From the NCBI RefSeq assembly GCF_001425055.1, contig NZ_LMDK01000004.1:1573-65572 (forward strand): a stretch of 64,000 nt of DNA, written 5' to 3'. Numbering within the stretch: the first letter of the stretch is position 1; every line of letters starts with the position of its first letter. The notes beneath the pieces were generated by a model. That model was given only the letters and a program-made list of their open reading frames with translations. It ran no database searches and was not told the origin of the DNA. Source of the DNA: Pelomonas sp. Root1237 (GTDB lineage: Bacteria > Pseudomonadota > Gammaproteobacteria > Burkholderiales > Burkholderiaceae_C). Shown here one piece after another: positions 19,096 through 50,469 of this stretch. Made by a program: the position numbers and the translations under genes.

Positions 19096-19153
19096 GCCGC
19101 AATTCTGGTAATTCGGCTCACAATTTGAGCCGATAGTGCTAAATTGCGGCTCA
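19093..19153 (+). promoter_or_regulatory. Two tandem 28-bp operators before fic
   Basis: TGAGCCG (19093) pairs with CGGCTCA (ending 19120), and TGAGCCG (19126) pairs with CGGCTCA (ending 19153). The two inverted repeats have identical 28-bp length, 33 bp apart, about three DNA turns. The last half-site touches the A of the fic ATG and the first includes the RidA stop. The geometry suggests dimer binding on one DNA face, plausibly by the C-terminal winged helix of the Fic protein itself. Confidence 0.7.
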
Positions 19154-21111: not shown

Positions 21112-21918
21112 CTAAGCCAACACCACCTCAATCCCCCGCCCCCTCAACTGATCCACGATCGCCTGATCCGCCCCGGTGTCCGTGATCAGCATGTCCAGCT
21201 GTTCCACCGGGGCGATGACCGACAGGTTGCGCTTCATCAGCTTGGACGCGTCCGCCACGGCCACGACCTGGCGGCTGATCTTCATCATCTGGGCGTTCAA
21301 CTGCGCTTCCAACAGATGGGGCGTCATCAGGCCGATGTCGGGGTCGAGGCTGTCGACGCCGAGGAAGAGGCGGTCGGCATACAGGCCCTGCAACGCGGCC
21401 ACGGCCTGGGGGCCGGACAGCGAGAAGGAGTTGGGCCGCAACTGGCCGCCCGGCATGATGAGGTTGACGTGCGGCACCGTGGCCAGCAGCGCCGCGATGT
21501 TCAGCGCGTTGGTGATGACGTTCAGCGACGTCAGTCGCAGACCGCGAATCTGCTTGGCAATCTCTTCGGTCGTGGAGCCCGAGTCGAGCAGGATGGTTTC
21601 GCCGTCGCGGATCATCTTGGCCGCCTCGGTGGCGATGCGCACCTTCTGCTCGTGGCGCAGCTTCTGCTTCACGCCGATGGGCACTTCCTCGGTGTCGCGT
21701 TGGGCCAGTGCACCGCCGTGGGTGCGCAGCACAGCGCCGGTGGAGGCCAGCGAGTTCAGGTCGCTGCGGATGGTGACGACGGAGGTGCCGAAGCGCTCGG
21801 CCAGTTCGTCCACCGTGACGCGGCCCTGCGTCTGCACCAACTCGCGGATCAGCCGGCGCCGCTCGTCGATGAGCAGCGGGCTTTCGGTTTTCGCGGGCAG
21901 TGAGAGGGAGGCTGGCAT
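21112..21918 (-). CDS. agaR: DeoR-family regulator of galactosamine use (AgaR)
   Basis: 268 residues. RRLIRELVQTQGRVTVDELA and TSVVTIRSDLNSLASTGAVL form the DeoR N-terminal winged HTH; the C-terminal sensor contains DGETILLDSGSTTEEIAKQI, the phosphosugar pocket of the family. It closes the agaP/Z/S/K operon, 44 bases after agaK, and probably responds to a sugar phosphate and binds the CGAAA-rich repeats at 26358-26547. AgaR is assigned from context; a GlcNAc- or galactitol-type DeoR regulator is the alternative. Confidence 0.8.
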   Translation of the reverse strand: MPASLSLPAKTESPLLIDERRRLIRELVQTQGRVTVDELAERFGTSVVTIRSDLNSLASTGAVLRTHGGALAQRDTEEVPIGVKQKLRHEQKVRIATEAAKMIRDGETILLDSGSTTEEIAKQIRGLRLTSLNVITNALNIAALLATVPHVNLIMPGGQLRPNSFSLSGPQAVAALQGLYADRLFLGVDSLDPDIGLMTPHLLEAQLNAQMMKISRQVVAVADASKLMKRNLSVIAPVEQLDMLITDTGADQAIVDQLRGRGIEVVLA

Positions 21919-21962
21919 GCAGGGCTGAAGGGCGGGGCCGACTTTCGAATGATATCGACGGC

Positions 21963-22919
21963 TTAAGCGTCCAACCGCGCCAGCGCTTCGGCCGACAACG
22001 GCCGCCCGGCCAGGCGCGCTGCGTACAGCGCCGCGCCCAGTTCAGGTCCAAAGCGCGGTGTCTTCAGCACCGACCCCGGCAGGCGCCGCGCCAGCGCCGC
22101 CTGCAGCGGCCCCAGCACTAGCTCCCCGGCCGCAAACACGCCGCCGGAATAGGACACGGGCACGGCCTGGATGCCACAGACCCCGGCAATGCCGAGGTTG
22201 CGCGCCACGCCGGCGGCGAGGGCCGCCAGTTCGTCGCCGGCGCGCACCAGCAACTGGCGGGCCTGCACGTCGCCCGCGTTGGCGGCGGCCGTGGCCAGGC
22301 GGGCGACCTGGGCCAGCTCGCTGCGCGCGGCGCTGCCGTTGATCTCGCCGCAGAGGTCGAGGTCATGCTTGAGCTCAAAGTGCTCGCGCACCAGGCCGAG
22401 CAGCGGGCCGGGCTCGGCGCGGCAGTCGGCCATGCGCGAAAACAGGGCCAGGGTCTCGCGCGCCAGCCAGTGGGCCGAGCCTTCGTCGCCAAAGACTTCG
22501 CCCCAGCCGCCGCAGCGCGCGCCGCGGCCCATCCATTCGCCATAGGCGATGGAGCCGGTGCCGGCAACGAGGCTGATGCCGTCGGCGCCGGCCAGCGACC
22601 CGGCCCAGCTGCAGATCATGTCGTTGCCGACGCGGCTGTGTGGCACCACGCCGGTGAGCAGTGCGTCGAAGGTGCCGAGCAGCTCACTGTCCTCGCCATG
22701 CGCGGGCAGGCCGGCGAAGGTGTAGCTGACGTCGCTGGCCGCCACGCCGGCCTGGCGCAGCGCGGCCTGCACGCCGTCGCACAGCAGCGCGCGCAGTGCG
22801 TCGAAGCCGATCTCGATGTAGTAGCTCGTCGTCGACTCGTGGCGCGCGAGCAGGCGGCCGATCTCGTCCACGAGGACGAAGGCGGTCTTCGTGCCGCCAC
22901 CGTCGATGCCGAGGAACAT
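21963..22919 (-). CDS. agaK: BadF-type (N-acetyl)galactosamine kinase (AgaK)
   Basis: 318 residues of the BadF/BadG N-acetylhexosamine kinase family: MFLGIDGGGTKTAFVLVDE (phosphate 1 loop), GISLVAGTGSIAYGE and the FGDEGSAHWL segment. It would phosphorylate GalNAc or GalN at C6 with ATP in the cytoplasm. I start at 22919, where TAAGGA sits 8 bases upstream; an ATG nine bases earlier abuts that site. It lies between agaS and agaR. Substrate inferred from agaS/agaZ. Confidence 0.78.
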   Translation of the reverse strand: MFLGIDGGGTKTAFVLVDEIGRLLARHESTTSYYIEIGFDALRALLCDGVQAALRQAGVAASDVSYTFAGLPAHGEDSELLGTFDALLTGVVPHSRVGNDMICSWAGSLAGADGISLVAGTGSIAYGEWMGRGARCGGWGEVFGDEGSAHWLARETLALFSRMADCRAEPGPLLGLVREHFELKHDLDLCGEINGSAARSELAQVARLATAAANAGDVQARQLLVRAGDELAALAAGVARNLGIAGVCGIQAVPVSYSGGVFAAGELVLGPLQAALARRLPGSVLKTPRFGPELGAALYAARLAGRPLSAEALARLDA

Positions 22920-22933
22920 GGAAGTCATCCTTA

Positions 22934-24103
22934 CTACTGCTGTGTCACGGGATGGATGGTGACACCGCTGACGACGCGGGTCACGGTGCCCGAGGCGCTG
23001 GGGTTGTCGGGCGTGATGCCGAGCTGCAGCGAGGCGAGCAGGGCCAGGCATTGCGCGAACACCAGTGCCACGGGTGCCAGCGCCAGGTCGGGGGCGGACG
23101 CAGGCAGGGCGAGGTGGACGTCGTCGGCATGCGTAGTTTCGGCACCGTTCAGCGCAGACGTACGCAGGGCCAGCACGCGAGCCGGGCCCTGCTGGCGCAG
23201 CTCGCGCAGCAGGTCGAGGTCGTACTGGCGCGTGTAGGGGTCGTTGGACAGGATGATGACGACCAGCGTCTTGTCGTTGAGGATGGTCTTGGGCCCGTGG
23301 CGAAAGCCCAGTGTCGAGTCAGCCATGGCGACGAGCTTGCCGTCGGTCAGCTCCAGCATCTTCAGCGCGGCCTCGCGGGCCAGGCCCAGCAGCGTGTTGC
23401 TGCCGAGGAAGACGATGCGCTCGAAGGACTGTTCGGCCAGTGCATAGAGGCGGTCGATCTCGCCCTCGGCCAAGGTCTGCGCGGCGCGGGCCAGGTCGGC
23501 CACCGGTGCGAGCGGCAAGTCGAAAGCCCAGGCCGCGGCCAACAGCATGCCGCTGAAGCTGGACGTCATCGCAAAGGCGCGGTCGTTGGTCTCGTCGGGC
23601 AGCAGCAGCACTCGCGCATGGGACTGGCCAGCCATGCGTTGGTTCAGCGTGCCGTCCGCCGCGCAGGTGATGACGAGGTGGTGGCAGGTCTTGATGAAGC
23701 GGTCGGCCAGCTCCACGGCGGCCAGGCTTTCGGGGCTGTTGCCGGAGCGGGCGAAGGACACCAGCAGCGTCGGCACCTCGGGCTGCAGGCATTGTTCGGG
23801 GCTGGAGACGATGTCGGTCGTTGCCACGGCTTCGACGCGGATGCCGGGGCGCTGGCCGAGGTGACGCAACAGGGCGGGCGCGATGCATTGGCCGATGAAG
23901 GACGAGCTGCCGGCGCCGGTCAGCACGATGCGCAGCTGGGGCAGGGCGAGCAGGGGCGCCAGGAAGGCGTCGAGGGCGGGGCGCTCGGCTTGCAGTTGGG
24001 CGTAAACGGTCTGCCAGACGGCGGGCTGATGAGCGATCTCACGGGCCGTGTGCGTGGCGCCGCGGTGGTCGAGGTCGGTGGGGTCGAGGTGAAGCAATGT
24101 CAT
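22934..24103 (-). CDS. agaS: AgaS-type galactosamine-6-phosphate deaminase/isomerase (SIS protein)
   Basis: 389 residues with two SIS domains. RIVLTGAGSSSFIGQ and LVSFARSGNSPESLAAVE bind the phosphosugar in the first; IVFLGSNTLLGLAREAALKM and DSTLGFRHGPKTIL mark the second. This length and order match AgaS, which converts galactosamine-6-phosphate to tagatose-6-phosphate plus ammonia. It lies 14 bases before agaK and 4 bases after agaZ in the operon. A GlmS-like SIS protein for glucosamine-6-phosphate is the main alternative. Confidence 0.82.
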   Translation of the reverse strand: MTLLHLDPTDLDHRGATHTAREIAHQPAVWQTVYAQLQAERPALDAFLAPLLALPQLRIVLTGAGSSSFIGQCIAPALLRHLGQRPGIRVEAVATTDIVSSPEQCLQPEVPTLLVSFARSGNSPESLAAVELADRFIKTCHHLVITCAADGTLNQRMAGQSHARVLLLPDETNDRAFAMTSSFSGMLLAAAWAFDLPLAPVADLARAAQTLAEGEIDRLYALAEQSFERIVFLGSNTLLGLAREAALKMLELTDGKLVAMADSTLGFRHGPKTILNDKTLVVIILSNDPYTRQYDLDLLRELRQQGPARVLALRTSALNGAETTHADDVHLALPASAPDLALAPVALVFAQCLALLASLQLGITPDNPSASGTVTRVVSGVTIHPVTQQ

Positions 24104-24107
24104 GGGA

Positions 24108-25391
24108 TCAGGCGGCGCAGGCGTGCAGATAGGGGCGCAGGGCTTGGACAGTGCCGTCGCGCAGCAGGGAATCGGTGCCGGTGGTGATGCGGCCGTCGCG
24201 CACCGCCTCGTACTGGCGCGGCAGGTACTGGCTCAGCAGCGTCAGCGGCGGCGGCGCGGCGTCCAGGCGGGCCAGCATGGTCCGGCAGGCCTCGCGCACG
24301 GCGGGGTGGGCCCAGTAGTAGCGGATGCGGTCGCTTAAGGAATATGCCAGGTCGACATTCAGCCGCGTCGGGTCTTGGTAGTAACCGCGCCAATGCTCGG
24401 GCTCGGCGCGCATGACGCCCAGCACGGTGTCGACCAGGCCTTCGCCCTTGCCGACCCATTCGCGCTCGACCGCGGCCAGCGCCCACAGCGTCTCGCGCAG
24501 CGCGAAGGTCACGCCGGGGCCGACCTTCAGGATGGCGAAGTGGTCGCGGGCCAGTTGGGCCAGGTGCTCGGGGGTCTGGTAGTCGGTCGAATGGGCTTCG
24601 AAAACCATGCCGGGCTGGCTTTCGATGAAGGCGCTCAAGGACCGCGCTTTCTCGGGCCGGTAGTCGATGACCTTGTGGTGGTCGAACTCCACGCCGGGCT
24701 GCACGACCATGGCGACGACACGCTCCCAGGCCAGGTCCAGCCCCGCGCGGGCGAAGGCGTCGCGGTGCAGTTCCAGCGTGGAGGCGGCGGCCTCGGGCGA
24801 CGTCACCGCCAGCTCGCCCAGGTCTTCATGCGCGCCGCCGGGCACGGGCACTTCGGTGCCGATGACGTACACCGGCGGGTCGCCACGGTCGGGCGCGTCG
24901 CGCCACGCCTGCTCGGCTGCGCGGCACAGGCGCACGGCACGGGCGGCGATCTCGGGTTCGGGCAGCGGCACCGGGTCGCCGGCGCAGGACATCGAGCAAT
25001 CCAGGTGAATCTTGCGAAAGCCCGCACTCACATATTGCGCCACCATGATCTCGGCCTTGGCCATCGCCACTTCGGCGGGCAGCTTGCGCCAGGCGTTGGG
25101 ACCGAGGTGGTCGCCGCCGAGCAGCAACAGCTCGGGCGCTAGGCCTTCGGCTTCGGCCAGGCCCTGCACATAGCGGCGGAAGTCCAGCGGCGTCATGCCG
25201 GTGTAGCCGCCGTCCTGGTTGACCTGGTTGGACGTCGCCTCGATGAGGGCAGGCCGGCCGTGCGCAGCACATTCGCGCAGCGTGGCGGCGATGACGACGG
25301 GGTGCGCGGAACAGACCGAGGGAATGCCAATGGCGACATCACCGTTGGCTGCCTGCTTGTGGCGGCGCACGAGGTCGAGCATGAGCTTCAT
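24108..25391 (-). CDS. agaZ: Tagatose-bisphosphate aldolase accessory-type protein (AgaZ/GatZ/KbaZ family)
   Basis: 427 residues from an ATG overlapping the permease stop (ATGA); an in-frame extension further upstream would run into the permease gene. GIPSVCSAHPVVIAATL, LLLGGDHLGPNAW and HLDCSMSCAGDP are characteristic of the GatZ/KbaZ/AgaZ barrel. The family is described as the non-catalytic subunit of class II tagatose-1,6-bisphosphate aldolase; no catalytic AgaY/GatY partner is seen here, so it may act with one encoded elsewhere or have another tagatose-phosphate role. Confidence 0.85.
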   Translation of the reverse strand: MKLMLDLVRRHKQAANGDVAIGIPSVCSAHPVVIAATLRECAAHGRPALIEATSNQVNQDGGYTGMTPLDFRRYVQGLAEAEGLAPELLLLGGDHLGPNAWRKLPAEVAMAKAEIMVAQYVSAGFRKIHLDCSMSCAGDPVPLPEPEIAARAVRLCRAAEQAWRDAPDRGDPPVYVIGTEVPVPGGAHEDLGELAVTSPEAAASTLELHRDAFARAGLDLAWERVVAMVVQPGVEFDHHKVIDYRPEKARSLSAFIESQPGMVFEAHSTDYQTPEHLAQLARDHFAILKVGPGVTFALRETLWALAAVEREWVGKGEGLVDTVLGVMRAEPEHWRGYYQDPTRLNVDLAYSLSDRIRYYWAHPAVREACRTMLARLDAAPPPLTLLSQYLPRQYEAVRDGRITTGTDSLLRDGTVQALRPYLHACAA

Positions 25392-26302
25392 GCGGCGTCT
25401 CCTTGAACGGGTTGGGAAGAGGAAGAAGAGGAGGGCGTTTCGGGTTGCAGCGCCAGCAGCAGCGCAGCCAGCAGGGCCAGGGCGACGCCGGCGAGCTTGC
25501 TGCCGCTCGGCGCGGCCCCGCTGAGGGCCATGGACAGCACCGCCGTCAGCAACGGTGCGCCGGCATTGACCATGGGCGACACGACCATGGCCTTGCCGTA
25601 GCGGAAGGCGTAGACCAGGGCCAGCGCGCCGATGGCGTTCAGCACCTGGATGACGGCGGCAAGGCCCGGGCCCTGCCAGCCCCAGCTGATGGGCTGGGAG
25701 AAGTCGGTCATCCACAGCGACACCGGCACGCAGGCCAGGGCGCCGACGGCCATGTAGAAGAAGATGCTTTCGGCGCTGGTGCCGGCGTTGGCCAGCTTGA
25801 TGAAGTAGGCCTGCAGGCCCCAGGCGACGAGCACGGCCAGGGCCAAAACAAACCACAGGCCCATCGGCTGACCCGTCTGGCCAAGTTGCAGGTCGAACAA
25901 AGGCAGGGAGCACAGCGCCAGCACGATGCCGGCCACGCCCAGCTTGCCGGTGCGCTCGCCCAGCAGGCCGAAGGACAGCGCGATGGTGATCGCCGGCGAC
26001 AGCGACACGATCGGGAAGATCAGATAGGCCGGGCCCGACTGCACCGCGCGGAACAGCAGCATCTGGCCACCGGCACCCAGCAGCCCGACGGCCAGGCCGA
26101 GCACGACGGAACGGCGGTCACGGTCGATGCGCCAGCCGGTGCGGGCCAGCACGATGACCGCCGGCGGGATCATGGTCAGTGCCCACACGGCATAGATCAA
26201 GGTGTCCGGAAAACCATGCTCGGCCGGCAGGCCGGTGAAGGCGCCCCAGACGCCCCAGAGCAGGGTCGAGATCAGTGCGTACGTGAGCCAGTTGCTCTGC
26301 AT
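25388..26302 (-). CDS. Inner-membrane sugar permease (DMT/GRP-like)
   Basis: 304 residues with about ten hydrophobic segments, starting WLTYALISTLLWGVWGAFTG and including AVQSGPAYLIFPIVSLSPAI. The tandem five-helix layout fits the drug/metabolite superfamily, including glucose/ribose-porter-like sugar uptake proteins. First gene of the aga operon, so a (N-acetyl)galactosamine or disaccharide importer is likely; exact substrate unproven. I choose 26302 because longer reading adds charged, non-membrane sequence; the ribosome site is weak. Confidence 0.75.
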   Translation of the reverse strand: MQSNWLTYALISTLLWGVWGAFTGLPAEHGFPDTLIYAVWALTMIPPAVIVLARTGWRIDRDRRSVVLGLAVGLLGAGGQMLLFRAVQSGPAYLIFPIVSLSPAITIALSFGLLGERTGKLGVAGIVLALCSLPLFDLQLGQTGQPMGLWFVLALAVLVAWGLQAYFIKLANAGTSAESIFFYMAVGALACVPVSLWMTDFSQPISWGWQGPGLAAVIQVLNAIGALALVYAFRYGKAMVVSPMVNAGAPLLTAVLSMALSGAAPSGSKLAGVALALLAALLLALQPETPSSSSSSQPVQGDAA

Positions 26303-26357
26303 CGGAAGTCTTTCGTGGATCTGGGAGTGCCGTTTGGAACTTTCGAGTGAAAGCATA

Positions 26358-26547
26358 AACGAACGAAAACGAAAACACAACGACGAAAACGCCTTCGTAT
26401 GCCGAATTCCGGAGGCGAGGGGCAAATCCCTATATAGCTCGCGCCGCTCCCTCTATGTCAGCGAGGTGGAAGCCTTTCGTGGCATGATTCATCGAAAGCA
26501 TTCGGCATCGGTGAAAACTCTATACGAAATCAAACGAAAGAATTCGT
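26358..26547. promoter_or_regulatory. CGAAA-rich AgaR-type boxes in the divergent aga promoter
   Basis: The 385-base gap between the permease and TonB-receptor genes is the lowest-GC stretch nearby and carries CGAAA/TTTCG words in three clusters: 26358-26391 (AACGAACGAAAACG repeated), a palindrome CTTTCG...CGAAAG at 26474-26498, and ACGAAATCAAACGAAAG at 26524-26540. On the other strand the first reads TTTTCGTTTTCGTTCG, close to the repeated TTTCNTTT pattern of DeoR/AgaR sites. A TATATAG near 26431 could be a -10 element. Likely AgaR control of both divergent operons. Confidence 0.6.
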
Positions 26548-26687
26548 AGACTTGCGTCAAGCCGGTTCGAGGGGCATCCAAGGAGCCGGCACACCGCACC
26601 GGGGGAGAGCTGCCCCGGCATCCAAAGCAGATGACATCGCGCTGCCCCGACGGCAGCCCCGACACACAAGATCAAAGGAACTGTTCG

Positions 26688-29519
26688 ATGAGTCCTCGCC
26701 TGCAACCCCGTTGTTTCGCGCTGCACCCGCTGACGCTGGCTGGCCTGATGGCCTTGACCGCCTTCGGTGCCGTCGCCCCGGCCTGGGCCCAGGAGGCCGC
26801 CAAAGCCGAGACCGACAACACGCTGGACCGCGTCGAAGTGACCGGCACCCGTGCCAGCCTGCAGAAGTCCCTTGCGCTCAAGCGCAACGCCGCCGGCGTG
26901 CAGGACAGCATCAGCGCGACCGAGCTGGGCCGGTTCCCCGACAACAACGTGGCCGACTCGCTGAGCCACATCACCGGCGTGTCCATCTCGCGCACGGCGG
27001 GTGGCGAAGGTCAGAAGGTCAGCATCCGCGGCCTCGGCCCCGAGTACACGATCACGACTTTCAACAGCCGCCTGCTCGGCACCGACAGCGCCGGCCGCTA
27101 CTTCGCCTACGACGTGCTGCCGGCCGACGTCATCAGCGGCGCCGACGTCGTCAAGTCCGCGCAGGCTTCCCTCGTCGAAGGTGCCATTGGCGGCCTGGTG
27201 AACCTGCGCTCGGCCAGCCCCTTCGACCAGAAGGGTCAGCGCGGCCTGCTGCGCGTGGAGGCCGACCGCAACCAGATGAGCAGCCTGAACGGCACCAAGC
27301 TGTCGGGCACCTACAGCAACACCTTCGGCGACCAGGTGGGCGTGTTGCTCGGTGTGGTGTATGCGAAGCGCGATGTGCGCACCGACACGGCCGGCAATGA
27401 TGGCGGCTGGTCGCGCAACCCGGCGCCGAACAAGCCGGAGCTTTTCTGGCCCTGGGGCAACACCTGGGGTGGCGCCATCGACCCTAACGGCAACGGGCAG
27501 CTGGACCCCGACGAGGAAGGCCTGATCGGTCCGGGCCAGTTCCGCTTCGGCACCATCATGGAGAAGAAGGAGCGCATGGCGCTCTCCGGCAAGGTCGAGT
27601 GGCGGCCCAGCAGCGACGTGAAGGTCGTCGTCGACGGCTTCAAGACGCGGCTGGACTCGCCGCAGGTCGGCTACCAGCTGTCCTTCTATCCGCTGTACGC
27701 GCCGGGCCGCTGGTCCAACATGAAGATCACCAACGGCGTGGTGACCGACTTCACGCTGGCCAACCCCGACCCGGAGATGGCGCTCAACCCCGAGCTGCTG
27801 AACAAGACCGAGTACCGCGTGGTGGACACCGCGATGTACGGTGCCAACGCGGAATGGAAGATCTCGCCCACGCTGAAAGCGACGGGTGACATCTACAAGT
27901 CCACCTCCAAGCGCCACTCCGGCGGCAACGACAGCTATGTCGTGCTGCGCATGAACCAGCCCAATGTCACGCGCATCCAGCTGACGGGGGCGGCTGTGCC
28001 CGATGTGAAGACCACTTTCACCGACGGCCGCGACCTGCAGACCGGCCTGGCGCAAGGCCTGTTCAAGGCCAGTGACTTCAACACCCACTACTTCAGCCTG
28101 GCCGGCGACAACATCGATGACAAGATCGATGGCGCCACCGGCAATCTCGAGTGGAAGCTGGACCGCTTCTACATCGACCAGCTGAAGTTCGGCCTCAGCC
28201 AGACCAACCGCAAGAAGTCGCGCGACCTCATCAACAACGCCTTCAACGCGGGCGACGGCCACTACTCGGGCGCCAACGCCATCAACGTCGGCGCGCTGGG
28301 CGGCAATGTCATCAACCAGACGTTGAGCCCGTCCGGCTTCATGGACGGCGTCAGCGGCAACTTCCCGCGCAGTTTCCTGGGCTTCGATATCAACAACTAC
28401 CTGCAGGCGCTGCAGGCCTACGACGGCAAGCCCCGCCCGGGCGGCGGCACCTACGACTTCAGCAAGGCAGCACCGGCCTGGAACCCGCTGGAGAGCTACC
28501 GAGTGACGGAGAAGACGACGACGGCCTTCATGCAGGCCGATCTGTCGGGCGACGGCTGGAACGCCGACGTCGGCGTGCGCTTCGTGAAGACCAAGACGAC
28601 CTCCCAGGCCTGGGACGCCAAGATTGTCGACATCATCGAGAACGGTGCGTTCAACTACACGGCCGTCTACGCGCCACCTTCCGTTCTGCAGCAGGAGTCG
28701 AGCTACAACTTCGCGCTGCCGTCGGTCAACTTCACCTGGCTGATCACCAACGATCTGCAACTGCGCCTGGGCGCAGCCAAGACCATGGCCCGCCCGTCGG
28801 TGGACAAGCTGGCGCCGACGAGCACGACGCAGAGCATCTCCTGGGGCGACTTCACGCAGGTGTTCGGCGGCAACGCCAACCTCAAGCCCTACAGCGCCCG
28901 CCAGGCCGATGTGTCGCTGGAGTGGTACTACGCCAAGGACTCGGCCCTGAACTTCGCCGTCTACCAGAAGAACATCAAGAACCAGATCACCAGCGAGTAC
29001 CTGACGGGGCAGAACATCGGCGCGCCGGGCGGCCGGCTGTTCAATGTCAGCCGCCCCATCAATGGCGACAAGGCCACCGCGCGCGGTTTCGAGATCGGCC
29101 TGCAACACCTGTTCGACAACGGCTTCGGCGTGCGAGCGCAGTACACGCGCAACAAGTCGCGCAGCTGGGTGGGCGGCGAGGAGCGTGCGCTGGAAGGCAT
29201 CGCGCCGGCCACGTCGTCGCTCGGCCTGCTGTACGAGAAGGGCCCGTGGAGCATGAGCGCCACGGCCGACCACACCGACGCCTTCGTCACCGCCACCAAC
29301 GTGCTGGGCGCCGGCTTCAACGAGCGCGCCAAGGCCGTGACCTGGGCGACGGCCCAGATCGCCTACGAGGTCAACAAGTGGCTGCGCCTGAGCATCGAAG
29401 GCAACAACCTGACCGACGCGACGCAGGAGTACACGCTGGGCAACGACAGCGTCAAGCTGCCGCAGGGCTACTACCGTTATGGCCGTTCGTTCACCGTCGG
29501 CGCTTCGATCAAGTTCTGA
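26688..29519 (+). CDS. TonB-dependent receptor for galactosamine oligosaccharides (predicted)
   Basis: 943 residues. Signal peptide ending in AWAQ, TonB-box-like VEVTGTRASLQKSL, plug domain (SISATELGRFPDNNVADSLS, VSIRGLGPEYT) and a C-terminal beta strand ending FTVGASIKF with terminal Phe: a complete outer-membrane receptor of the type linked to polysaccharide use. Start 26688 has AAAGGAAC at a good distance; an in-frame ATG further upstream is not followed by a signal peptide. Head of the plus-strand operon. Ligand inferred from neighbours. Confidence 0.88.
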   Translation: MSPRLQPRCFALHPLTLAGLMALTAFGAVAPAWAQEAAKAETDNTLDRVEVTGTRASLQKSLALKRNAAGVQDSISATELGRFPDNNVADSLSHITGVSISRTAGGEGQKVSIRGLGPEYTITTFNSRLLGTDSAGRYFAYDVLPADVISGADVVKSAQASLVEGAIGGLVNLRSASPFDQKGQRGLLRVEADRNQMSSLNGTKLSGTYSNTFGDQVGVLLGVVYAKRDVRTDTAGNDGGWSRNPAPNKPELFWPWGNTWGGAIDPNGNGQLDPDEEGLIGPGQFRFGTIMEKKERMALSGKVEWRPSSDVKVVVDGFKTRLDSPQVGYQLSFYPLYAPGRWSNMKITNGVVTDFTLANPDPEMALNPELLNKTEYRVVDTAMYGANAEWKISPTLKATGDIYKSTSKRHSGGNDSYVVLRMNQPNVTRIQLTGAAVPDVKTTFTDGRDLQTGLAQGLFKASDFNTHYFSLAGDNIDDKIDGATGNLEWKLDRFYIDQLKFGLSQTNRKKSRDLINNAFNAGDGHYSGANAINVGALGGNVINQTLSPSGFMDGVSGNFPRSFLGFDINNYLQALQAYDGKPRPGGGTYDFSKAAPAWNPLESYRVTEKTTTAFMQADLSGDGWNADVGVRFVKTKTTSQAWDAKIVDIIENGAFNYTAVYAPPSVLQQESSYNFALPSVNFTWLITNDLQLRLGAAKTMARPSVDKLAPTSTTQSISWGDFTQVFGGNANLKPYSARQADVSLEWYYAKDSALNFAVYQKNIKNQITSEYLTGQNIGAPGGRLFNVSRPINGDKATARGFEIGLQHLFDNGFGVRAQYTRNKSRSWVGGEERALEGIAPATSSLGLLYEKGPWSMSATADHTDAFVTATNVLGAGFNERAKAVTWATAQIAYEVNKWLRLSIEGNNLTDATQEYTLGNDSVKLPQGYYRYGRSFTVGASIKF

Positions 29520-30613
29520 TGAAAGATCTCCTCCGTGTTGCCGCCCTGCTTGCCGGGGCGGCCTTTTTATCCGCACAGGCTGCAGATGGGGCCAGCTACA
29601 CGATGGCCGACTACAGCCGTGTCGTGAAGATCGACACCCACCTGCATCTGCACAACCCCGCGCCGACCTTCATGGCGGCGGCCAAGCGCCAGAACTTCAA
29701 GGTGCTGACGATCAACGTCGACTACCCCGACTTCCCGCCGCTGGACGACCAACAGCGCGTGGCGATCGAGTTGCAGAAGCAATTTCCCAAGGACGTGGCC
29801 TGGGCGGCCAGCTTCTCGGTGGACGGCTCGGATCAGCCCGCCTGGCTGCCCGCCACGCGCCAGCGCATCGCGGCGGCCATGAAGGCCGGCGCCGTCGGTG
29901 TGAAGGTGTGGAAGAACATCGGCATGGGCCTGAAGGGCGCCGACGACAAGCTCGTCATGATCGACGACGCCCGCTTCGCGCCGCTGTTCGACGACTTCGC
30001 CAAACAAGGCATCCCGCTGCTCGGCCACCAGGGTGAGCCCCACAACTGCTGGCTGCCGCTGCACCAGATGACGGTCAACAATGACCGCGAATACTTCAAG
30101 GCCCACCCGCAATACCACATGGCCCTGCATCCCGAGATGCCCAGCTGGGAAGCGCAGATGGCCGCGCGCGACCGCATGGTGGCGGCGCACCCGGGCCTGA
30201 ACTTCATCGGCGTTCACCTCGCCTCGCTGGAGCGCAGCGTGGATGAGCTGGCCGCCTTCCTGGACCGCTTCCCCAACGCCAAGGTCGACGTTGCCGCGCG
30301 CATCGGTCAGCTGCAATACCAGAGCCAGAAGGACCGCGAGCGCGTGCGCCGCTTCTTCATCAAATACCAGGACCGCGTCATGTACGGCAGCGACATGTCG
30401 CAGGCGCCCGACCAGGACGGCACCGCGCTGGCCAAGGAAGCCGAAGGCGTGTGGCGCATGCACTGGCGCTACTTCAACACGGCGGATAGCTTCAAGGTGG
30501 CTGACCTCGACAAGCCGGTGAAGGGGCTGGCGCTGCCGCGTGAGGTCGTCGACAAGCTTTACCACCTGAACGCCGAGCGGACATTCCCCGGCGCCTGGGG
30601 CGGCAAGCGATGA
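29519..30613 (+). CDS. Periplasmic amidohydrolase (PF04909-type)
   Basis: 364 residues with a signal peptide (MKDLLRVAALLAGAAFLSAQA). IDTHLHLHNP gives the H-x-H metal pair, LLGHQGEPHN and FIGVHLAS further His ligands, and VMYGSDMSQAP the conserved Asp of the amidohydrolase-2 barrel. Its ATG shares its A with the receptor stop and its end overlaps the GH36 gene, so it is firmly in the operon. No AgaA/NagA deacetylase is seen in the cluster; this protein might remove N-acetyl groups or open another amide before uptake. That function is a guess. Confidence 0.75.
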   Translation: MKDLLRVAALLAGAAFLSAQAADGASYTMADYSRVVKIDTHLHLHNPAPTFMAAAKRQNFKVLTINVDYPDFPPLDDQQRVAIELQKQFPKDVAWAASFSVDGSDQPAWLPATRQRIAAAMKAGAVGVKVWKNIGMGLKGADDKLVMIDDARFAPLFDDFAKQGIPLLGHQGEPHNCWLPLHQMTVNNDREYFKAHPQYHMALHPEMPSWEAQMAARDRMVAAHPGLNFIGVHLASLERSVDELAAFLDRFPNAKVDVAARIGQLQYQSQKDRERVRRFFIKYQDRVMYGSDMSQAPDQDGTALAKEAEGVWRMHWRYFNTADSFKVADLDKPVKGLALPREVVDKLYHLNAERTFPGAWGGKR

Positions 30614-33294: not shown

Positions 33295-35195
33295 AGCATC
33301 GCCTCGCCCCGATCACCCTCGCCCTGACCCTGCTCCTTGCCACCGCCCATGCGCAGCAGCAACCCCTGGCCCCCACCGGCCGCTGGGCCCATCAGGGCGT
33401 CGGCAGCGCGCCGACGCCACCGATGGGCTGGTCGAGCTGGAATGCCTTCCACATGGACCTCACGGAGCAGAGGGTGCTCGACTCGGCCCAGGTCATCGTC
33501 GACACCGGGCTGGCCGCGGCGGGTTACAGCAACATCAACATCGACGACGGCTGGTGGCGGCAGCGCCGCGCGAGCGACGGCCGCATGCAGGTGCGCACGA
33601 ATCTGTTCCCGAGCGCGGGCACCGGCGGCGCGGCCGGCACGTCGCTGCGCCCGTTCACCGACAAGATCCACGCGATGGGGCTGAAGGCCGGCCTGTACTC
33701 CGACATCGGCCGCAACGCCTGCTCGCAGGCCTACAACACCGACAGCCCCAACCTGCCCGAAGGCAGCCAGGTTGAGCGGGAGGTGGGGCTGATGAACAAC
33801 GTCGAGCGCGACATCGCGCTCTACTTCGGCGACTGGAACTTCGACTTCATCAAGGTGGACGGCTGCGGCCTGTCGTCGTACGGCAAGGACCGCCCCCCGG
33901 TCATGTCGGGCCGCTTCCGCGAGTTCGGACCGACGGTCGTCGAGGGCAATGCCAACCAGTCCGACATGGACGGCGCCCGCGCCCTGTACGGCCGCGTCAC
34001 GCAGGCGTTGCGCAGCGTGCGGCCGCATGGCGACTATGTGCTGTCGGTCTGCCTCTGGGGCGCCGCCAATGTCCGCAGCTGGGGCGCCGAGGCGGGCACG
34101 ATGTGGCGCACGAGCCGCGACATCGCGCCCAGCTTCTCGCAGATGCTGCACAACTTCGACACCGTCGCTACGCGCGAGTTCTACGCCGGCCCGGGCCGCT
34201 GGAATGACCCCGACATGCTGGAGATCGGCAACGGCGACTTCGACGGCAATCACCTGCTCGAAGCCCGTACCCACATGGGCTTGTGGGCCATCGCTGCCGC
34301 GCCGCTGATGATCGGCACCGACCTGTCGAAAGCCTCGCCCGCCCTCATCGACGTGCTGAAGGCACCCGAGGTCGTCGCCATCAACCAGGACCCAGCCGGC
34401 CATCAGGGCGTGCTCGCCTATGCCGACAGTGACCGGCAGATCCTCGTCAAGAGCTTGGCCGATGGACGCAAGGCCGTGCTGCTGTTCAACCGCACGGGTG
34501 CTGCCGCCAAATTCACGCTGACCGCCGAACACCTGAAGATGGACGCGACAGCACCCGTCGCGCTGCGCGACGCCTGGGCTCGCGCCGATGCGGGCACGTT
34601 CACGGACAAGCGCGAGTTCGAGCTGAAGCCGCGCGAGGCGCTGCTGTTCACCGCCACCGGCAAGCACCTGCTGCCGCGCGGCTACTTCGTCTCCGAGCGC
34701 CCCGGCAACGTCTACGTGGCGCGCGACGGCATCCGCGCGCTGGAGCAGGATCCCATCGGCTACCGTGCGCTGGCGTCCTGGTCCACCACCGACAACGGCG
34801 GCACCCGCCCGGCCTACGCCGGCTGGGGCGCGCCGCGTGCCGACTCGACGCCCTATGACCAGGCACTCAGCGTGCAGCGCCAGGCCTTCCGCCATGGCGT
34901 CGGCGTGCTGGCCGATTCGCGGCTGCAGGTGCAGGTGCCCGCCGGCTCGCAACGCTTCGTTGCCCGCGTCGGCGTGGACGACTCGACGCGCGGCAAGACC
35001 GCTGCGGTCAGCTTCGAAGTCTGGGGTGATGGCCGCCGCCTCGCGGCCACCACGCCCACCAAGTTCAACCAACCGGCGCGCGAACTCAGCGCCGACCTGC
35101 GAGGCGTGAAGCTGATCGAGCTGATCGCGCGCCAACACGGGGCCGACACCACGGGCCCTGTCGTCGTGACCTGGGGCGACGCTCGCATCGAGTAG
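33291..35195 (+). CDS. GH27-type alpha-galactosidase/alpha-GalNAcase with NPCBM domain
   Basis: 634 residues with a signal peptide. GWSSWNAFHMD opens the GH27 barrel; DFIKVDGCGLSSYG carries the nucleophile Asp and GPGRWNDPDMLEIGNG the acid/base Asp. The segment normally reading C-E-W-G next to the sugar 2-position is C-L-W-G (Leu codon at 34053-34055). A Greek-key domain follows, then a C-terminal NPCBM module (ALASWSTTDNGG to VVTWGDARIE). Secreted or periplasmic hydrolysis of alpha-linked Gal or its 2-amino derivative is likely. Overlaps the GH36 gene by ATGA. Confidence 0.85.
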   Translation: MKHRLAPITLALTLLLATAHAQQQPLAPTGRWAHQGVGSAPTPPMGWSSWNAFHMDLTEQRVLDSAQVIVDTGLAAAGYSNINIDDGWWRQRRASDGRMQVRTNLFPSAGTGGAAGTSLRPFTDKIHAMGLKAGLYSDIGRNACSQAYNTDSPNLPEGSQVEREVGLMNNVERDIALYFGDWNFDFIKVDGCGLSSYGKDRPPVMSGRFREFGPTVVEGNANQSDMDGARALYGRVTQALRSVRPHGDYVLSVCLWGAANVRSWGAEAGTMWRTSRDIAPSFSQMLHNFDTVATREFYAGPGRWNDPDMLEIGNGDFDGNHLLEARTHMGLWAIAAAPLMIGTDLSKASPALIDVLKAPEVVAINQDPAGHQGVLAYADSDRQILVKSLADGRKAVLLFNRTGAAAKFTLTAEHLKMDATAPVALRDAWARADAGTFTDKREFELKPREALLFTATGKHLLPRGYFVSERPGNVYVARDGIRALEQDPIGYRALASWSTTDNGGTRPAYAGWGAPRADSTPYDQALSVQRQAFRHGVGVLADSRLQVQVPAGSQRFVARVGVDDSTRGKTAAVSFEVWGDGRRLAATTPTKFNQPARELSADLRGVKLIELIARQHGADTTGPVVVTWGDARIE

Positions 35196-35227
35196 CCGCC
35201 CAGCACGCCTTCTCTCCATCGCTATTT

Positions 35228-35248
35228 GGCACCGGTCGCGCCGGTGCC
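35228..35248 (+). terminator. Hairpin after the GH27 gene
   Basis: A perfect stem GGCACCGG-TCGCG-CCGGTGCC lies 33 bases after the GH27 stop. There is no T-run, so it may only attenuate or protect the upstream mRNA. Confidence 0.5.
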
Positions 35249-35318
35249 CTGGCCGCGCTCGCGCTGACGTGGCCCTGCCCCTCCCGTTCAGCGCTCAGTC
35301 GTTCATGAGGAGAACCCG

Positions 35319-37250
35319 ATGCACTCCATGCGTCCCTGCCCCTTGCCCCGCGCTCGTGCGGGGCTGAAGCTCGCCTTCCCGCTCGCCCTGATCGCCGCCT
35401 GGCCTGTTGCCGCGACCGCGACGCCCCTGGTGTCCAACCCCCTGGGTGCCTGCCTGGAAGCCAAGGTCGACACCTGGGACATCCGTCTGGCGACCTGCAA
35501 CGCCAGCGCCGCGCAGGACTTCAGCCTCACGCCGGTCAGCACGGGCAGCAGCATCTACACCCTCAAGAACGCGCAGGCCAATCTGTGCGTCTCCGCCACC
35601 GGCACCAGCTCCGGCTCGTTCGTGGAGCTGAACACCTGCCAGCCCACACAGACGGGCCAGCGCTTCTCGGTGGTGGCACTGGCGGGCGGCTCGACGGCCC
35701 AGCTCAAGCTGGCGGCCAACAACCTGTGCCTGACCGCGCCGACTCAACTGGCCCAGGTAGGCTTCTCGGTCGCGACCTGCAACACCGGCAATGCCAACCA
35801 GGCCTGGCGGCTCGCTGCGCCCACCCCGGCGCCTACGCCCGCACCGACTCCCGCACCCACCCCTGCGCCCACGCCGGCACCGACTCCCGCGCCTACCCCT
35901 GCACCGACACCTGCTCCCACGCCGGCACCCGCACCCGTCGAAACCAGCTTCACCGTCAGCACCGCCGAGATCGCCAATCCCGAGCGGGGCATGTACACCT
36001 GGGCCGCCGACAACCTGCTGCTGTGGACGCAGGCCGATGCCGACGCGCAGTTCCAGGCCGGCTACCGCGTTGTGTACGCCGCCGTGCGCCTGGACGCCTA
36101 TGCCAACACCACGCTGCCGGCCAGCCTGCTCACGCAGCTCACCAATGGATTCGCGATCGCGCGCCGTGCCGGCCTGAAGCTGGTGCCGCGCTTCCTCTAC
36201 AACTACCCGGCCAACGAGACCGAATACCAGAACGTGAAGGACGCGCCGCTGACGCGTGTGCTCGGCCACATCGACCAGCTCAAGCCGGTGCTGACGGCCA
36301 ATGCCGATGTCATCGCCTATCTGCAGGCCGGCTTCGTCGGCGCCTGGGGCGAGTGGCACACCTCGTCCAACAACCTCACCGCCGCCAGCCCGCGCACGCA
36401 GATCCGCGATGCGCTGCTGAATGCGCTGCCGACCGACCGCTTCCTGCAGCTGCGCTATCCGCCGTATCTGATGCAGTGGGCCTCGCAGGTGCCGAGCTGG
36501 CGCGACGGGTCGGCGGCCTCGCGCATCGGCGTGCACAACGACTGCTTCCTGGCCTCGGCCACCGACGTCGGCACCTACAGCGAGGACGCCGCAACGCGCC
36601 AGAACGAGCGTAACTACACCGCCTCGCTGTCACGCGTGGCCCCCTTCGGTGCGGAAACCTGCAACCCTGCCGACGAGGAAGGCGCGGTGCCGCGCAGCAG
36701 TTGCACCGACATCCTGGCCGAGGGCAAGCAGTTCGGCCTGACCTATCTGAACAACGACTACTACCGCGACCTCTTCCACACCAAGTGGGAGCAGCAGGGC
36801 TGCATGGCGGAGGTCAAGCGCAGCATGGGCTACCGCTTCGAACTCTCTACCCTGCGCCACAGCGCGGCCGTGACGGCCGGACAGTCGGGGGACCTGCTGC
36901 TGACGGTTCGCAACAGCGGCTGGGCGCGCGCCTTCAACCCGCGGGCGCTGCATCTGCTGCTCAAGCACAAGACGACGAGCGCCGTCGTCCGCATCGCGCT
37001 GACGGCCGTCGACCCGAGAGGCTGGCTGCCCAACAGCACCAGCACCGTGTCGGCGGGCTTCACCGTGCCGGCGGGAACGCCGACGGGCGCCTACGACGTG
37101 CTGCTTGCCCTGCCAGACGGCTCCGCATCGCTCAGTGCCGACGTGCGCTATAGCGTGCGCCCTGCCAATGCGGACAACACCGCCAAGGCCCAGGCCTGGG
37201 ATGCGGCGCTGGGCGCCTTCCGTGCCGGCACGACGCTGACCGTCCGTTGA
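35319..37250 (+). CDS. Secreted ricin-lectin/DUF4874-DUF4832 protein, putative polygalactosaminidase
   Basis: 643 residues. A signal region is followed by a ricin-type beta-trefoil (about 35-170; [28 protein letters not shown]). A Thr-Pro-Ala-Pro linker (about 168-207) precedes a DUF4874-like barrel ([25 protein letters not shown] with candidate Glu residues) and a C-terminal DUF4832-like beta domain. AGGAGA sits 7 bases before the ATG. The lectin could hold galactose-containing polymer while the barrel cleaves it. Hydrolase activity is inferred from fold and from two downstream spherulin-4 proteins, not shown by a known catalytic motif. Confidence 0.65.
35821..35938 (+). repeat. Thr-Pro-Ala-Pro linker repeat
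   Basis: About twenty degenerate ACN-CCN-GCN-CCN units encode a flexible PTPA linker between the lectin and barrel domains. The repeat is at protein level with varied third bases, so it reflects selection for a linker rather than a DNA tandem array. Confidence 0.85.
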
Positions 37251-37273
37251 ACAACCTTCTCCAGGAGAAACGA

Positions 37274-38146
37274 ATGTCCAGTTTCCATATCAAGCTCGCC
37301 GCCGCGAGCCTGCTGACCCTAGGCGCCACGCTGGCCTGCGCCGCTCCGACCGGCTTCGGCATGGTGGCCTACTGGGGTGAAACCGCCAGCACCTATGGCG
37401 GCCAGATCCCCAGCGGGGCCTATGTCGTCATCAACCCCAATAGCGGCGCCACCGGCCTGAGCGGCAGCCAGGTCACCAACTGGAAGGCCGTCATCGCCAA
37501 CATCCGCGCCCAGGGCGGCAAGGTGCTGGGCTATGTGGCCACCGGCTACGACTACAACACCGCCGACGAACTGGCCCGCTACAACGCGATCAACGCCAAC
37601 CTGACCGCCTACAAGACGACGCTGGGCGGCGTGGATGGCTTCTTCTTCGACGAGGCCGCCTTCGACGACGCGGCGCTGACCGACACGCAGAAGTGCAATG
37701 GCACGCCGCCGAAGTTCAGCGCCGTGCGCGCCAAGATGGCGGCCACCGGCACCAGCGGCACAGTGGTGTGGAACGCCGGCTGGCCGGGCGCCAGCAGTTG
37801 CTTCGTCAACGCGGCCAGCTATGGCGAGCACCTCGTCATCTACGAGGCCAAGTACAGCGACTACGTGGCCGCGGCGAGCTGGCTCAACGGCGGCGTGCAG
37901 AGCCTCGCCGCATCGCTGGGCGTGAAGACCTGGCTGCTGGTGCACTCGGCCACCCAGGCCGAGATGCGCTTGACGCTCAAGGGCAGCGCGGCCAACTACG
38001 TCTACGCCACCAGCATGACCTACAACCCCAGCCTGCCCTGGGGCGGCCCGATCTGGAACTACACGCCGACCTACTGGGGCAACGAGGCGCTGAGCGGCTC
38101 GGAGCGTTGGTGCCTGAACAGCCTGAAGACCGGCGGCAGCTGCTGA
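37274..38146 (+). CDS. Secreted spherulin-4 (GH135/Sph3-like) glycosidase 1
   Basis: 290 residues from the ATG at 37274 (GGAGAA six bases upstream); a signal peptide ends near ACAAP. GFGMVAYWGE, AYVVINPNSGATG, GKVLGYVATGY and GVDGFFFDEAAFDDA are the sequence blocks of the spherulation-4 family, whose fungal member Sph3 (GH135) is an endo-alpha-1,4-N-acetylgalactosaminidase acting on galactosaminogalactan. The paired acidic residues in FFDEAAFDD are candidate catalytic groups. It lies 23 bases after the lectin gene and 14 before its paralogue. Confidence 0.78.
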   Translation: MSSFHIKLAAASLLTLGATLACAAPTGFGMVAYWGETASTYGGQIPSGAYVVINPNSGATGLSGSQVTNWKAVIANIRAQGGKVLGYVATGYDYNTADELARYNAINANLTAYKTTLGGVDGFFFDEAAFDDAALTDTQKCNGTPPKFSAVRAKMAATGTSGTVVWNAGWPGASSCFVNAASYGEHLVIYEAKYSDYVAAASWLNGGVQSLAASLGVKTWLLVHSATQAEMRLTLKGSAANYVYATSMTYNPSLPWGGPIWNYTPTYWGNEALSGSERWCLNSLKTGGSC

Positions 38147-38160
38147 GGAAAGGAAGGAAT

Positions 38161-39021
38161 ATGAAGCGTTTGAAAACCCTCATCGCTGCATTAGCCCTTG
38201 CAAGCGCGGCGCCCTTCGCGTCGGCCATCGAGATCATCGTGCCGGCGTACTTCTATCCGTCCTGGATGCCGTCGCTGAACGAGTGGCACCAGCTCACCTG
38301 GGCCGCCCAGCAGGGTGCGCAGGTCACGGCCATCATGAACCCGGGCAACGGGCCGGGCCTGGCCTCCAACAGCGACTACGTGGCCTCGGTCAACGAGTTC
38401 CGCGCCGCGGGTGGCAAGGTGATCGGCTATGTCTACACCTGCTATGGCGTCAACCACTGCACCTCGGAAGTGCCGCCGACACGCTCGACGGGCGAGGTGC
38501 TGGCGGACGCGCAGAAGTATGCGAACTGGTATGGCGTGGACGGCGTCTTCCTCGACGAAATGGCGACGCTGCCGGGCGCGCTGCCGTTCTATCAGACCGT
38601 CAGCAACAGCCTGCGCGCGGCGCATCCGGGCTGGGAGATCGTCGGCAACCCGGGCGTGACGCCAACTGCAGGCTACACGGCGCTGGCGAACACGCTGATG
38701 AGCTTTGAAGGCTCGTACAGCGACTTCATCAACGGTTCCTTCCTGAGCGGGCTGACGAACGCCGCGTCGACCGGTGCCATCGTCCACAGCGTGGCAACGG
38801 AGGCCCAGATGCTGCAAGTGATGGGCCTGGCCAGGCAGCATGGGCTGGGGGCGATCTACGTCACCGATGGGACGATGGCGAGCGGCAATCCGTATCTGCA
38901 TCTGCCGAGCTATTGGACGGCGGAGGTGGCGGCCGCGGCGGTGCCGGAGCCGGCGCAGGCCGGGATGCTGATGGCCGGGCTGGCCTTGATGGCCGGCATC
39001 GTGCGTCGGCGCCGTCGCTGA
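38161..39021 (+). CDS. Spherulin-4 (GH135-like) glycosidase 2 with PEP-CTERM tail
   Basis: 286 residues: signal peptide (ALALASAAPFASA), spherulin-4 blocks IIVPAYFYPSW, AIMNPGNGPG, GKVIGYVYTCYG and GVDGVFLDEMA, then VPEPAQAGMLMAGLALMAGI and terminal Arg residues, a PEP-CTERM sorting signal processed by an exosortase. It is a divergent paralogue of the upstream gene (GGAAGGAAT ribosome site). Unlike its partner it is probably routed to the cell surface or matrix. Last gene of the plus-strand operon. Confidence 0.8.
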   Translation: MKRLKTLIAALALASAAPFASAIEIIVPAYFYPSWMPSLNEWHQLTWAAQQGAQVTAIMNPGNGPGLASNSDYVASVNEFRAAGGKVIGYVYTCYGVNHCTSEVPPTRSTGEVLADAQKYANWYGVDGVFLDEMATLPGALPFYQTVSNSLRAAHPGWEIVGNPGVTPTAGYTALANTLMSFEGSYSDFINGSFLSGLTNAASTGAIVHSVATEAQMLQVMGLARQHGLGAIYVTDGTMASGNPYLHLPSYWTAEVAAAAVPEPAQAGMLMAGLALMAGIVRRRRR

Positions 39022-48066: not shown

Positions 48067-48068
48067 GA

Positions 48069-50317: not shown

Positions 50318-50335
50318 GATCTGGTCCCCAGAAGT

Positions 50336-50357
50336 AAAAAGGGCCGCTCGCGCGGCC
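50336..50357 (-). terminator. Terminator between the TonB receptor and halogenase 2
   Basis: On the minus strand GGCCGC-GCGA-GCGGCC is followed by CTTTTTACTT. It ends 19 bases before the halogenase ATG, so it can cut receptor transcripts off from the four downstream genes. Confidence 0.65.
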
Positions 50358-50469
50358 TCGCCAAGCGGCGAACAAGGACGGTGCCCCAGAGCGCGAGCAC
50401 CGCCGAACCAGACTTTGCCTCACAAGAAAGGAAGGGAGAGTCCCGACTTTCCTTGACCCCTGGCAGGGC

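Follow-up and report, generated by a model that had tools for sequence, protein, structure and literature searches.

A TonB-dependent locus of Pelomonas with a probable role in the use of α-1,4-linked galactosamine polymers

Which polymer might be attacked by a bacterium that encodes relatives of the Aspergillus hydrolase Sph3 next to a cytoplasmic pathway for amino sugars? The question is raised by a locus at positions 21112 to 39021 of a 64,000-nucleotide stretch of DNA from Pelomonas sp. Root1237 (contig NZ_LMDK01000004.1, positions 1,573 to 65,572 of the forward strand; hereafter, the window), whose host genome comprises 6.43 Mb in 22 contigs. The locus consists of 12 intact open reading frames (ORFs), arranged as two divergent operons that flank a 328-bp promoter region (26303–26630). 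Moving away from this region, the minus strand encodes an EamA permease, GatZ, AgaS, a BadF-type kinase, and an AgaR-like repressor, and the plus strand encodes a TonB receptor, an Amidohydro_2 enzyme, a glycoside hydrolase of family 36 (GH36), a GH27–NPCBM protein, a ricin-B/DUF4874/DUF4832 protein, and two spherulin-4 proteins. Apart from one weak match noted below, all Pfam family calls in these 12 genes lie above cut-off and, with the intact ORFs, bear out the gene content and divergent arrangement given in an earlier reading of the letters alone (the sequence-only reading).

We consider it probable, at roughly three in four, that the locus provides for the TonB-dependent use of cationic α-1,4-linked polymers of galactosamine (GalN) and N-acetylgalactosamine (GalNAc) made by other organisms, be it bacterial Pel, fungal galactosaminogalactan, or both. 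That the locus serves the utilization of an α-1,4-GalN(Ac) polymer had been proposed before and is supported here: spherulin-4 (GH135), DUF4832, and a GH36 resembling the galactosaminidase FpGalNase, families that publications or genome context connect with this class of polymer, meet an Aga pathway, and GH114, another such family, is present in two sister loci. Chance does not account for the arrangement: its core recurs in 38 GH36 loci, the window among them, and in three of three further loci from a phylum-wide sample, whereas among 399 genomes of the order only 12 have Spherulin4 and five DUF4832 above cut-off.

The GH36 enzyme and its amidohydrolase partner

The GH36 gene (30610–33294, plus strand; Pfam Melibiase/GH36, 48 bits) encodes a protein with a twin-arginine signal by inspection and a weak, below cut-off CBM9_2 match at the C terminus. 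Its best match in the PDB is 8x1b (248 bits, E 1.2e-72), which is deposited as "Alpha-galactosidase" and is near-identical in the printed alignment to 9awt; 9awt itself (244 bits, E 2.7e-71) and 9ayu (243–244 bits) are named "A type blood alpha-D-galactosamine galactosaminidase," and no other solved structure exceeds 51 bits. Eight of nine named active-site residues of FpGalNase are kept, with W317, D346, D347, W387, K461, D463, C513, and D532 corresponding to W301, D330, D331, W371, K438, D440, C492, and D511 of the window protein, and the exception being Y464, which is replaced by Gly441. Residues were counted manually on the alignment as printed, with 43 added to the chain number, and the gap that HMMER placed between K and D was re-placed by hand on the KxD pattern, on which the K–D–Y part of the mapping depends. 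A CxCG motif is present in all 37 GH36 copies that cover the site, two of the 39 sequences ending before it. The protein is thus probably an exo-α-galactosaminidase, and its earlier description as an α-galactosidase is not sustained. FpGalNase is reported to act on blood-group A jointly with a deacetylase, FpGalNAcDeAc.

Immediately upstream lies the Amidohydro_2 gene (29519–30613, plus strand; Pfam, 52 bits), the product of which carries a signal peptide by inspection. H41, H43, H170, E173, H233, and D292, which fit the pattern of a metal site, are invariant across 19 aligned copies. A search of PDB sequences returned no match at E up to 1. The AlphaFold model (predicted local distance difference test score, pLDDT, of 84.7) places the protein in the amidohydrolase superfamily, with Foldseek matches to ACMSD-type decarboxylases, LigJ/LigY, lactonases, and hydantoinases at query template-modeling scores of 0.31 to 0.51 among the 50 matches listed; as modeled, this fold would neither support nor exclude a deacetylase. 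The near-constant pairing with a galactosaminidase, reminiscent of FpGalNAcDeAc and FpGalNase, leads us to guess, at about even odds, that this enzyme may be a periplasmic GalNAc deacetylase.

The GH27 enzyme and the question of galactose

The GH27–NPCBM protein (33291–35195, plus strand; Pfam Melibiase_2/GH27, 121 bits) was placed against α-galactosidases via a CEW motif in the enzyme from rice, the Glu of which we take to be human Glu203. Leu255 and Ala258 then occupy the Glu203 and Leu206 positions. In 20 aligned GH27 copies, the former position is Leu, Ala, or Thr and never Glu (0/20), and the latter varies among Ala, Thr, Met, Glu, and Ser. α-Galactosidase A is reported to bar larger C2 substituents through Leu206 and Glu203. 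The residues found here suggest a possible exo-α-N-acetylgalactosaminidase. GH27 accompanies DUF4832 in 10 of 10 loci with that domain and occurs in 10 of 28 without it (Fisher test, 5e-4, phylogeny ignored). The case for galactosaminogalactan had been built in part on α-galactosidases; with a GH36 of galactosaminidase type and a GH27 lacking the galactosidase Glu203, the galactose argument weakens, and two α-galactosidases can no longer be adduced.

Endo-acting enzymes and their association with pel operons

Apart from the two spherulin-4 genes, the host genome has no match to PF12138 (cut-off 30.2 bits). Both products have signal peptides by inspection. Protein 1 (37247–38146, plus strand; 70.7 bits) presents Asp135–Glu136 and Glu200 as catalytic acids by motif only, and protein 2 (38161–39021, plus strand; 143.3 bits), which ends in a PEP-CTERM tail, aligns with Aspergillus Sph3 (5c5g, E 5e-10) such that its D132–E133 and E183 fall on catalytic sites that we take to be Asp166/Glu167/Glu222. 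The Sph3 paper prints Asp196/Glu222, of which only Glu222 agrees with the sites used here.

The third presumptive endo-enzyme (35319–37250, plus strand) joins a ricin-B lectin domain (45 bits) through a Pro/Ala/Thr linker to DUF4874 (132 bits) and DUF4832 (174 bits). A PDB sequence search gave only weak matches to the linker, the lectin, and other low-complexity parts (best E 0.0012). In Streptococcus intermedius, the DUF4832 hydrolase SIR_1591 is reported to equal approximately the PelA hydrolase in breaking up Pel aggregates, and streptococcal and clostridial pel clusters contain DUF4832 genes; likened to SIR_1591 by domain family only, the window protein is a candidate Pel or galactosaminogalactan endo-hydrolase.

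To which polymer do these families point? In a sample of 399 genomes of the order, the window genome included, Spherulin4 occurs in 12, DUF4832 above cut-off in five, and PF03537 in 46. A PF03537 ORF of PelA size (919–1004 residues; 60–86 bits) is present in 10 of the 11 other Spherulin4 genomes (Fisher test, 1.7e-9 versus 46/399, phylogeny ignored), and all four other DUF4832 genomes harbor PF03537. In genomes G204, G377, and G171 (L018:8878–10074, L024, and L023), Spherulin4, in two copies in one of them, lies directly 3′ of a seven-gene run called as pelABCDEFG-like by gene sizes. Five proteins of G204, where alone the run was checked with Pfam, are a GH114-plus-deacetylase protein of PelA type (the deacetylase match slightly below cut-off), a PelB barrel, a PelF-type glycosyltransferase, PelG, and Spherulin4. 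In this position, spherulin-4 would seem to be a GH135-type hydrolase that belongs to the Pel operon. DUF4832 and GH114 adjoin pelF and pelG in G274 (L121:3752–12405), and GH114 lies near pelG in G384 (L123).

The sequence-only reading had suggested a search for spherulin-4 beside aga genes. Spherulin-4 is present in four of the 38 module loci defined below, and in the 11 other genomes of the order that encode Spherulin4, no Aga, GH36, or DUF4832 gene lies within ≈9 kb of it on either side. Pel consists of GalN and GalNAc, and these two sugars alone could satisfy both exo-enzymes. The spherulin-4 genes at the ends of pel operons in relatives indicate Pel at least as much as fungi, and the preference for galactosaminogalactan over Pel is not supported and not established. 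The host genome has no match to PelG or PF03537, and without such a marker of Pel synthesis, foraging is likelier than biosynthesis.

GH114 enters the picture through two sister loci. In G675, a GH114 gene (296 bits) separates the TonB receptor from the amidohydrolase on a contig that ends just past GH36, so that only G606 bears on the presence of GH27, DUF4832, and spherulin-4; in G606, GH114 (303 bits) is convergent with GH36, with none of the three in 30.7 kb. Fungal Ega3 (GH114) favors deacetylated stretches and Sph3 acetylated ones. The single locus of G606 suggests a possible division of labor between GalN-cutting loci without GH27 and GalNAc-cutting loci with it.

A conserved eight-gene core and a lineage-specific cassette

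The core comprises the TonB receptor, AgaR, the kinase, AgaS, GatZ, EamA, the amidohydrolase, and GH36. A contig scan with GH36 found 36 loci; adding the window, G606, and G675, and counting as one locus two fragments that come from a single bin, gives the 38 module loci. Gene presence was scored by phmmer (E up to 1e-10) over ≈10 kb on each side, some stretches stopping at contig ends. The amidohydrolase, AgaS, and GatZ are each present in 37 of these loci; for the kinase, EamA, and AgaR the count is 36, and for the TonB receptor it is 35. TonB and DeoR proteins belong to large families, so that their presence weighs less. L036 and L052 are truncated where their stretches end, and L039 retains only the TonB receptor, GH36, GH27, and DUF4832 in 22.7 kb. 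Hosts in the scan include Roseateles/Pelomonas, Massilia, Duganella, Pseudoduganella, Sphingomonas, Novosphingobium, and Sphingopyxis. A sample of 398 genomes across the phylum yielded the window and three further GH36 loci, one from the same class and two from elsewhere in the phylum, all three with the full core.

The other hydrolases are far more sporadic, with GH27 in 20 of the module loci, DUF4832 in 10, spherulin-4 in four, and GH114 in two. A known endo-galactosaminidase family is thus found near 12 of the 38 module loci and none of the three phylum-level loci. DUF4832 is present in nine of the 37 other module loci versus four of the 398 other genomes of the order (5e-8, phylogeny ignored). 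Most copies of the core lack endo-enzymes nearby, which argues that these are a lineage-specific add-on. The window, L033 (from Pelomonas sp. Root405), and L042 carry three endo-type genes directly 3′ of GH27; L042, from Pelomonas sp. Root1217, is the nearest to the window (89.6% identity over 20 kb, from 12 locus stretches against window positions 20001–42000). By our own gene calls, the gap between GH27 and the elongation factor G (EF-G) gene is 138 bp in L040, stop codons included, at the site where the window and L042 carry DUF4832 and both spherulin-4 genes and L060 carries DUF4832 and one spherulin-4. The EF-G gene itself (39064–41079) marks the edge of the locus, and the gap between it and GH27 is the site of cassette presence or absence in relatives. 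In Duganella L047 (12076–13599), and alike in L048 and L067, a protein of ≈500 residues with a below cut-off DUF5123 match is encoded directly 3′ of GH36 and is a candidate enzyme of the core in that genus.

Cytoplasmic pathway and regulation

How would the released sugar be consumed? AgaR, a kinase, AgaS, and GatZ/AgaZ are all present in the locus, as judged by Pfam and NCBIfam. The DeoR-family repressor (21112–21918, minus strand; Pfam DeoR, 159 bits) is nearest to NCBIfam AgaR at 239 bits, below the cut-off of 260. The BadF/BcrA-type kinase (21963–22928, minus strand; PF01869 BcrAD_BadFG, 125 bits; NCBIfam NagK, 82 bits against a cut-off of 370) takes the place of AgaK and would phosphorylate GalN or GalNAc. 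The AgaS-type SIS protein (22934–24103, minus strand; Pfam SIS, 60 bits; TIGR02815, 471 bits against 529) is a putative GalN-6-phosphate deaminase/isomerase. The GatZ/KbaZ/AgaZ protein (24108–25391, minus strand; GatZ_KbaZ-like, 582 bits; TIGR02810, 585 bits, above the cut-off of 569) is assigned to the tagatose-phosphate step, AgaZ having been put forward as a tagatose-6-phosphate kinase. The EamA permease of the DMT superfamily (25388–26302, minus strand; PF00892, 80 bits) is the probable inner-membrane importer of the amino sugar. At the outer membrane, the TonB-dependent receptor of TonB-Xanth-Caul type (26631–29519, plus strand; Pfam barrel and plug) stands in place of a SusC/SusD pair, with no SusD among the Pfam-scanned window genes.

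The galactosamine path had been called complete, which is overstated: neither the GalNAc-6-phosphate deacetylase AgaA nor the aldolase catalytic subunit KbaY is among the 12 genes. One NagA above cut-off (251 bits) and a single class II aldolase are encoded elsewhere in the host genome. E. coli NagA is reported to deacetylate GalNAc-6-phosphate, and by analogy the host NagA could do so as well. An operon without AgaA fits GalN as the main product, an argument that the genomic NagA renders weak.

The divergent region contains six CTTTC/GAAAG boxes, where its base composition would predict 0.69 (Poisson, 8e-5). Across 18 divergent regions of module loci, CGAAA, ACGAA, and CTTTC rank first to third of the 504 5-mers scored with a first-order Markov background. 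Some of these regions are related and thus do not count as independent, and the ranking excludes the Sphingomonadales as well as the upstream regions of TonB genes that adjoin unrelated genes. One or two CTTTC boxes occur in 12 of 12 amidohydrolase/GH36 regions of Sphingomonadales. CTTTC was reportedly given as the AgaR consensus by Leyn et al. in 2012, and the boxes are likely AgaR operators for both operons.

From the gene content and the conserved residues, we infer the following pathway, including its activities, locations, and order of steps. The lectin–DUF4874/DUF4832 hydrolase and the two spherulin-4 enzymes would cut the polymer outside the cell or at its surface, and the TonB receptor would import the oligosaccharides. 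In the periplasm, GH36 would remove terminal α-GalN and GH27 terminal α-GalNAc (or galactose), with the amidohydrolase perhaps deacetylating GalNAc and so enabling GH36. The amino sugar would enter the cytoplasm via EamA and be converted by the kinase to its 6-phosphate, any GalNAc-6-phosphate being deacetylated by the NagA encoded elsewhere; AgaS would then give tagatose-6-phosphate, and GatZ with a general aldolase would finish the path. AgaR, bound to the CTTTC boxes between the divergent operons, would repress both.

Alternative substrates

Several results weigh against the use of an α-1,4-GalN(Ac) polymer as the function of the locus. GH135, DUF4832, and GH114 are all not found near 26 of the 38 module loci and three of three phylum-level loci, and no known endo-galactosaminidase lies near the loci of Sphingomonadales and Duganella or the Massilia-type loci of 55 to 60% identity, so that the core itself may serve other α-GalN(Ac) glycans. 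Sph3 is specific for poly-GalNAc, and spherulin-4 may therefore not open native Pel alone. DUF4832 has been termed a domain that ends many glycoside hydrolases, and hence is no proof of Pel; a rumen cellulosome study lists a DUF4874–DUF4832–dockerin protein, and the AlphaFold model of the window protein is too poor to help (pLDDT 54). GH114 is found in only three of 35 module genomes, FsGH114 is inactive on Pel, and the bacterial GH114s of one study were never soluble and well folded. Three of the Aga-type proteins fall below their NCBIfam cut-offs, GatZ alone being above. Finally, 11 of 12 Sphingomonadales TonB/AgaR regions lack a box, the remaining one having a single box.

The scarcity of endo-enzymes around the core speaks for a reading in which the locus targets α-GalNAc caps, such as those of mucin-like O-glycans, blood-group-A-like structures, or O-antigens, with spherulin-4 and DUF4832 as accessories. 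FpGalNase works on blood-group A after deacetylation, and the close relative L040 lacks the cassette at the same site. The families of the three genes that follow GH27 in the window, L033, and L042 are, however, linked to α-1,4-GalN(Ac), and GH114 occurs in the two sister loci; we regard cap removal as unlikely. A strictly fungal galactosaminogalactan locus with α-galactosidases for the galactose units, as first proposed, is improbable: GH27 could still accept galactose, two GH18 genes and one GH16 gene share the window, and one study took GH135 in a soil archaeal family as a sign of fungal-wall degradation, but the GH36 is of galactosaminidase type, Glu203 is missing from all 20 GH27 copies, spherulin-4 and DUF4832 lie within pel operons in some relatives, and a separate regulator and receptor go with the chitin/glucan genes.

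The same pel operons might suggest that the locus remodels or disperses a Pel-like polymer of the host's own, since in relatives both spherulin-4 and DUF4832 are encoded alongside genes for Pel synthesis. Pel self-processing was rejected, the host having neither PelG nor PF03537 and possessing instead an import and catabolic path; moreover, the only PF03537 matches in the 35 module genomes are three of 291 to 303 bits, unlike the PelA-sized ORFs, and we give this explanation very little credence. Least credible of all is ordinary α-galactoside utilization (raffinose or galactomannan), which the family names of GH27 and GH36 would favor and against which the FpGalNase-type GH36, the AgaR/AgaS/GatZ amino sugar pathway, and spherulin-4 all speak; a plant α-galactoside locus was rejected in view of the GH36 and GH27 residues together with the Aga genes.

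Utilization of cationic GalN/GalNAc polymers made by others remains the preferred reading, and a bolder extension of it is offered tentatively, as more doubtful than not: the core may be a widespread proteobacterial system, so far undescribed, that deacetylates and then cleaves GalN glycans outside the cytoplasm, with the amidohydrolase founding a new family of carbohydrate N-deacetylases, and the Roseateles/Pelomonas lineage may have turned it into a locus for feeding on biofilm polymers by gaining hydrolases of pel-operon type (spherulin-4 and DUF4832).

Comparison with known systems

A TonB-type sugar utilization locus is of a known kind; its target polymer and core set appear undescribed in open-access text. 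We found no open-access paper on a locus for Pel or galactosaminogalactan utilization, and the earlier statement that no such bacterial polysaccharide utilization locus had been described is not contradicted by that literature, which leaves out most subscription papers. The E. coli and Shewanella Aga regulons share with this locus an AgaR-type repressor, AgaS, and a KbaZ/GatZ-like protein, and Shewanella also a kinase, a permease, and an outer-membrane transporter; the present locus differs in that AgaA and KbaY are not among its 12 genes, its permease is of EamA type, and a secreted amidohydrolase, an FpGalNase-type GH36, and polymer hydrolases are added. The Flavonifractor plautii pair FpGalNAcDeAc/FpGalNase is matched by a GH36 with a nearly equal set of active-site residues and, in 37 of 38 loci, by a secreted amidohydrolase, which in contrast has no PDB sequence match, and the genes here are set in a catabolic operon that includes a TonB receptor. 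Clusters for Pel biosynthesis, together with the hydrolases associated with them (PelA, SIR_1591, and BCE_5582), have DUF4832 and, in sampled relatives, spherulin-4 in common with the present locus, whereas here the host lacks a Pel synthesis marker and the hydrolases are coupled to catabolism. Aspergillus Sph3 belongs to the same sequence family and has the same catalytic motif but lies in a galactosaminogalactan synthesis cluster, whereas the present proteins are bacterial, one of the two has a PEP-CTERM tail, and both belong to a catabolic operon. GH135 is also listed for bioreactor bins. The mucin-GalNAc locus BT4240-50 of Bacteroides thetaiotaomicron likewise ends in amino sugar phosphorylation and differs in its GH109, GH2, and M60-like peptidase, its mucin O-glycan target, and a kinase that is reported to phosphorylate O1.

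Among the cationic polymers of bacterial and mold biofilms, Pel and galactosaminogalactan are important ones. If the proposed function is true, the locus would supply an enzyme set for dismantling such matrices (two GH135-like proteins, a DUF4832 hydrolase, GH36, GH27, and perhaps a deacetylase), would allow consumers to be sought by selective growth, and would tell ecologists who recycles these polymers; L040, free of the cassette at the same site, would be a natural control.

Neighboring genes

The chitinases and GH16 glucanase that had been cited in support of an attack on fungal walls are real genes of the window. They lie 16 to 21 kb from the locus, beyond EF-G and AraC, and are accompanied by a LacI regulator and a TonB receptor of their own, on which grounds the two GH18 genes and GH16 were rejected as part of the same locus. 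The region concerned (45521–60333) encodes two tryptophan-halogenase-like proteins, Cupin_8, a TonB receptor, LacI, GH16–CBM6, and two GH18–CBM5/12 proteins and is likely a separate β-glucan/chitin locus. Between it and EF-G, positions 43572 to 45029 encode a 485-residue protein with a Pro/Ala linker, a lipoprotein-like start, and no Pfam match. On the other side, a Fic/DUF4172 protein (19144–20340) adjoins the locus.

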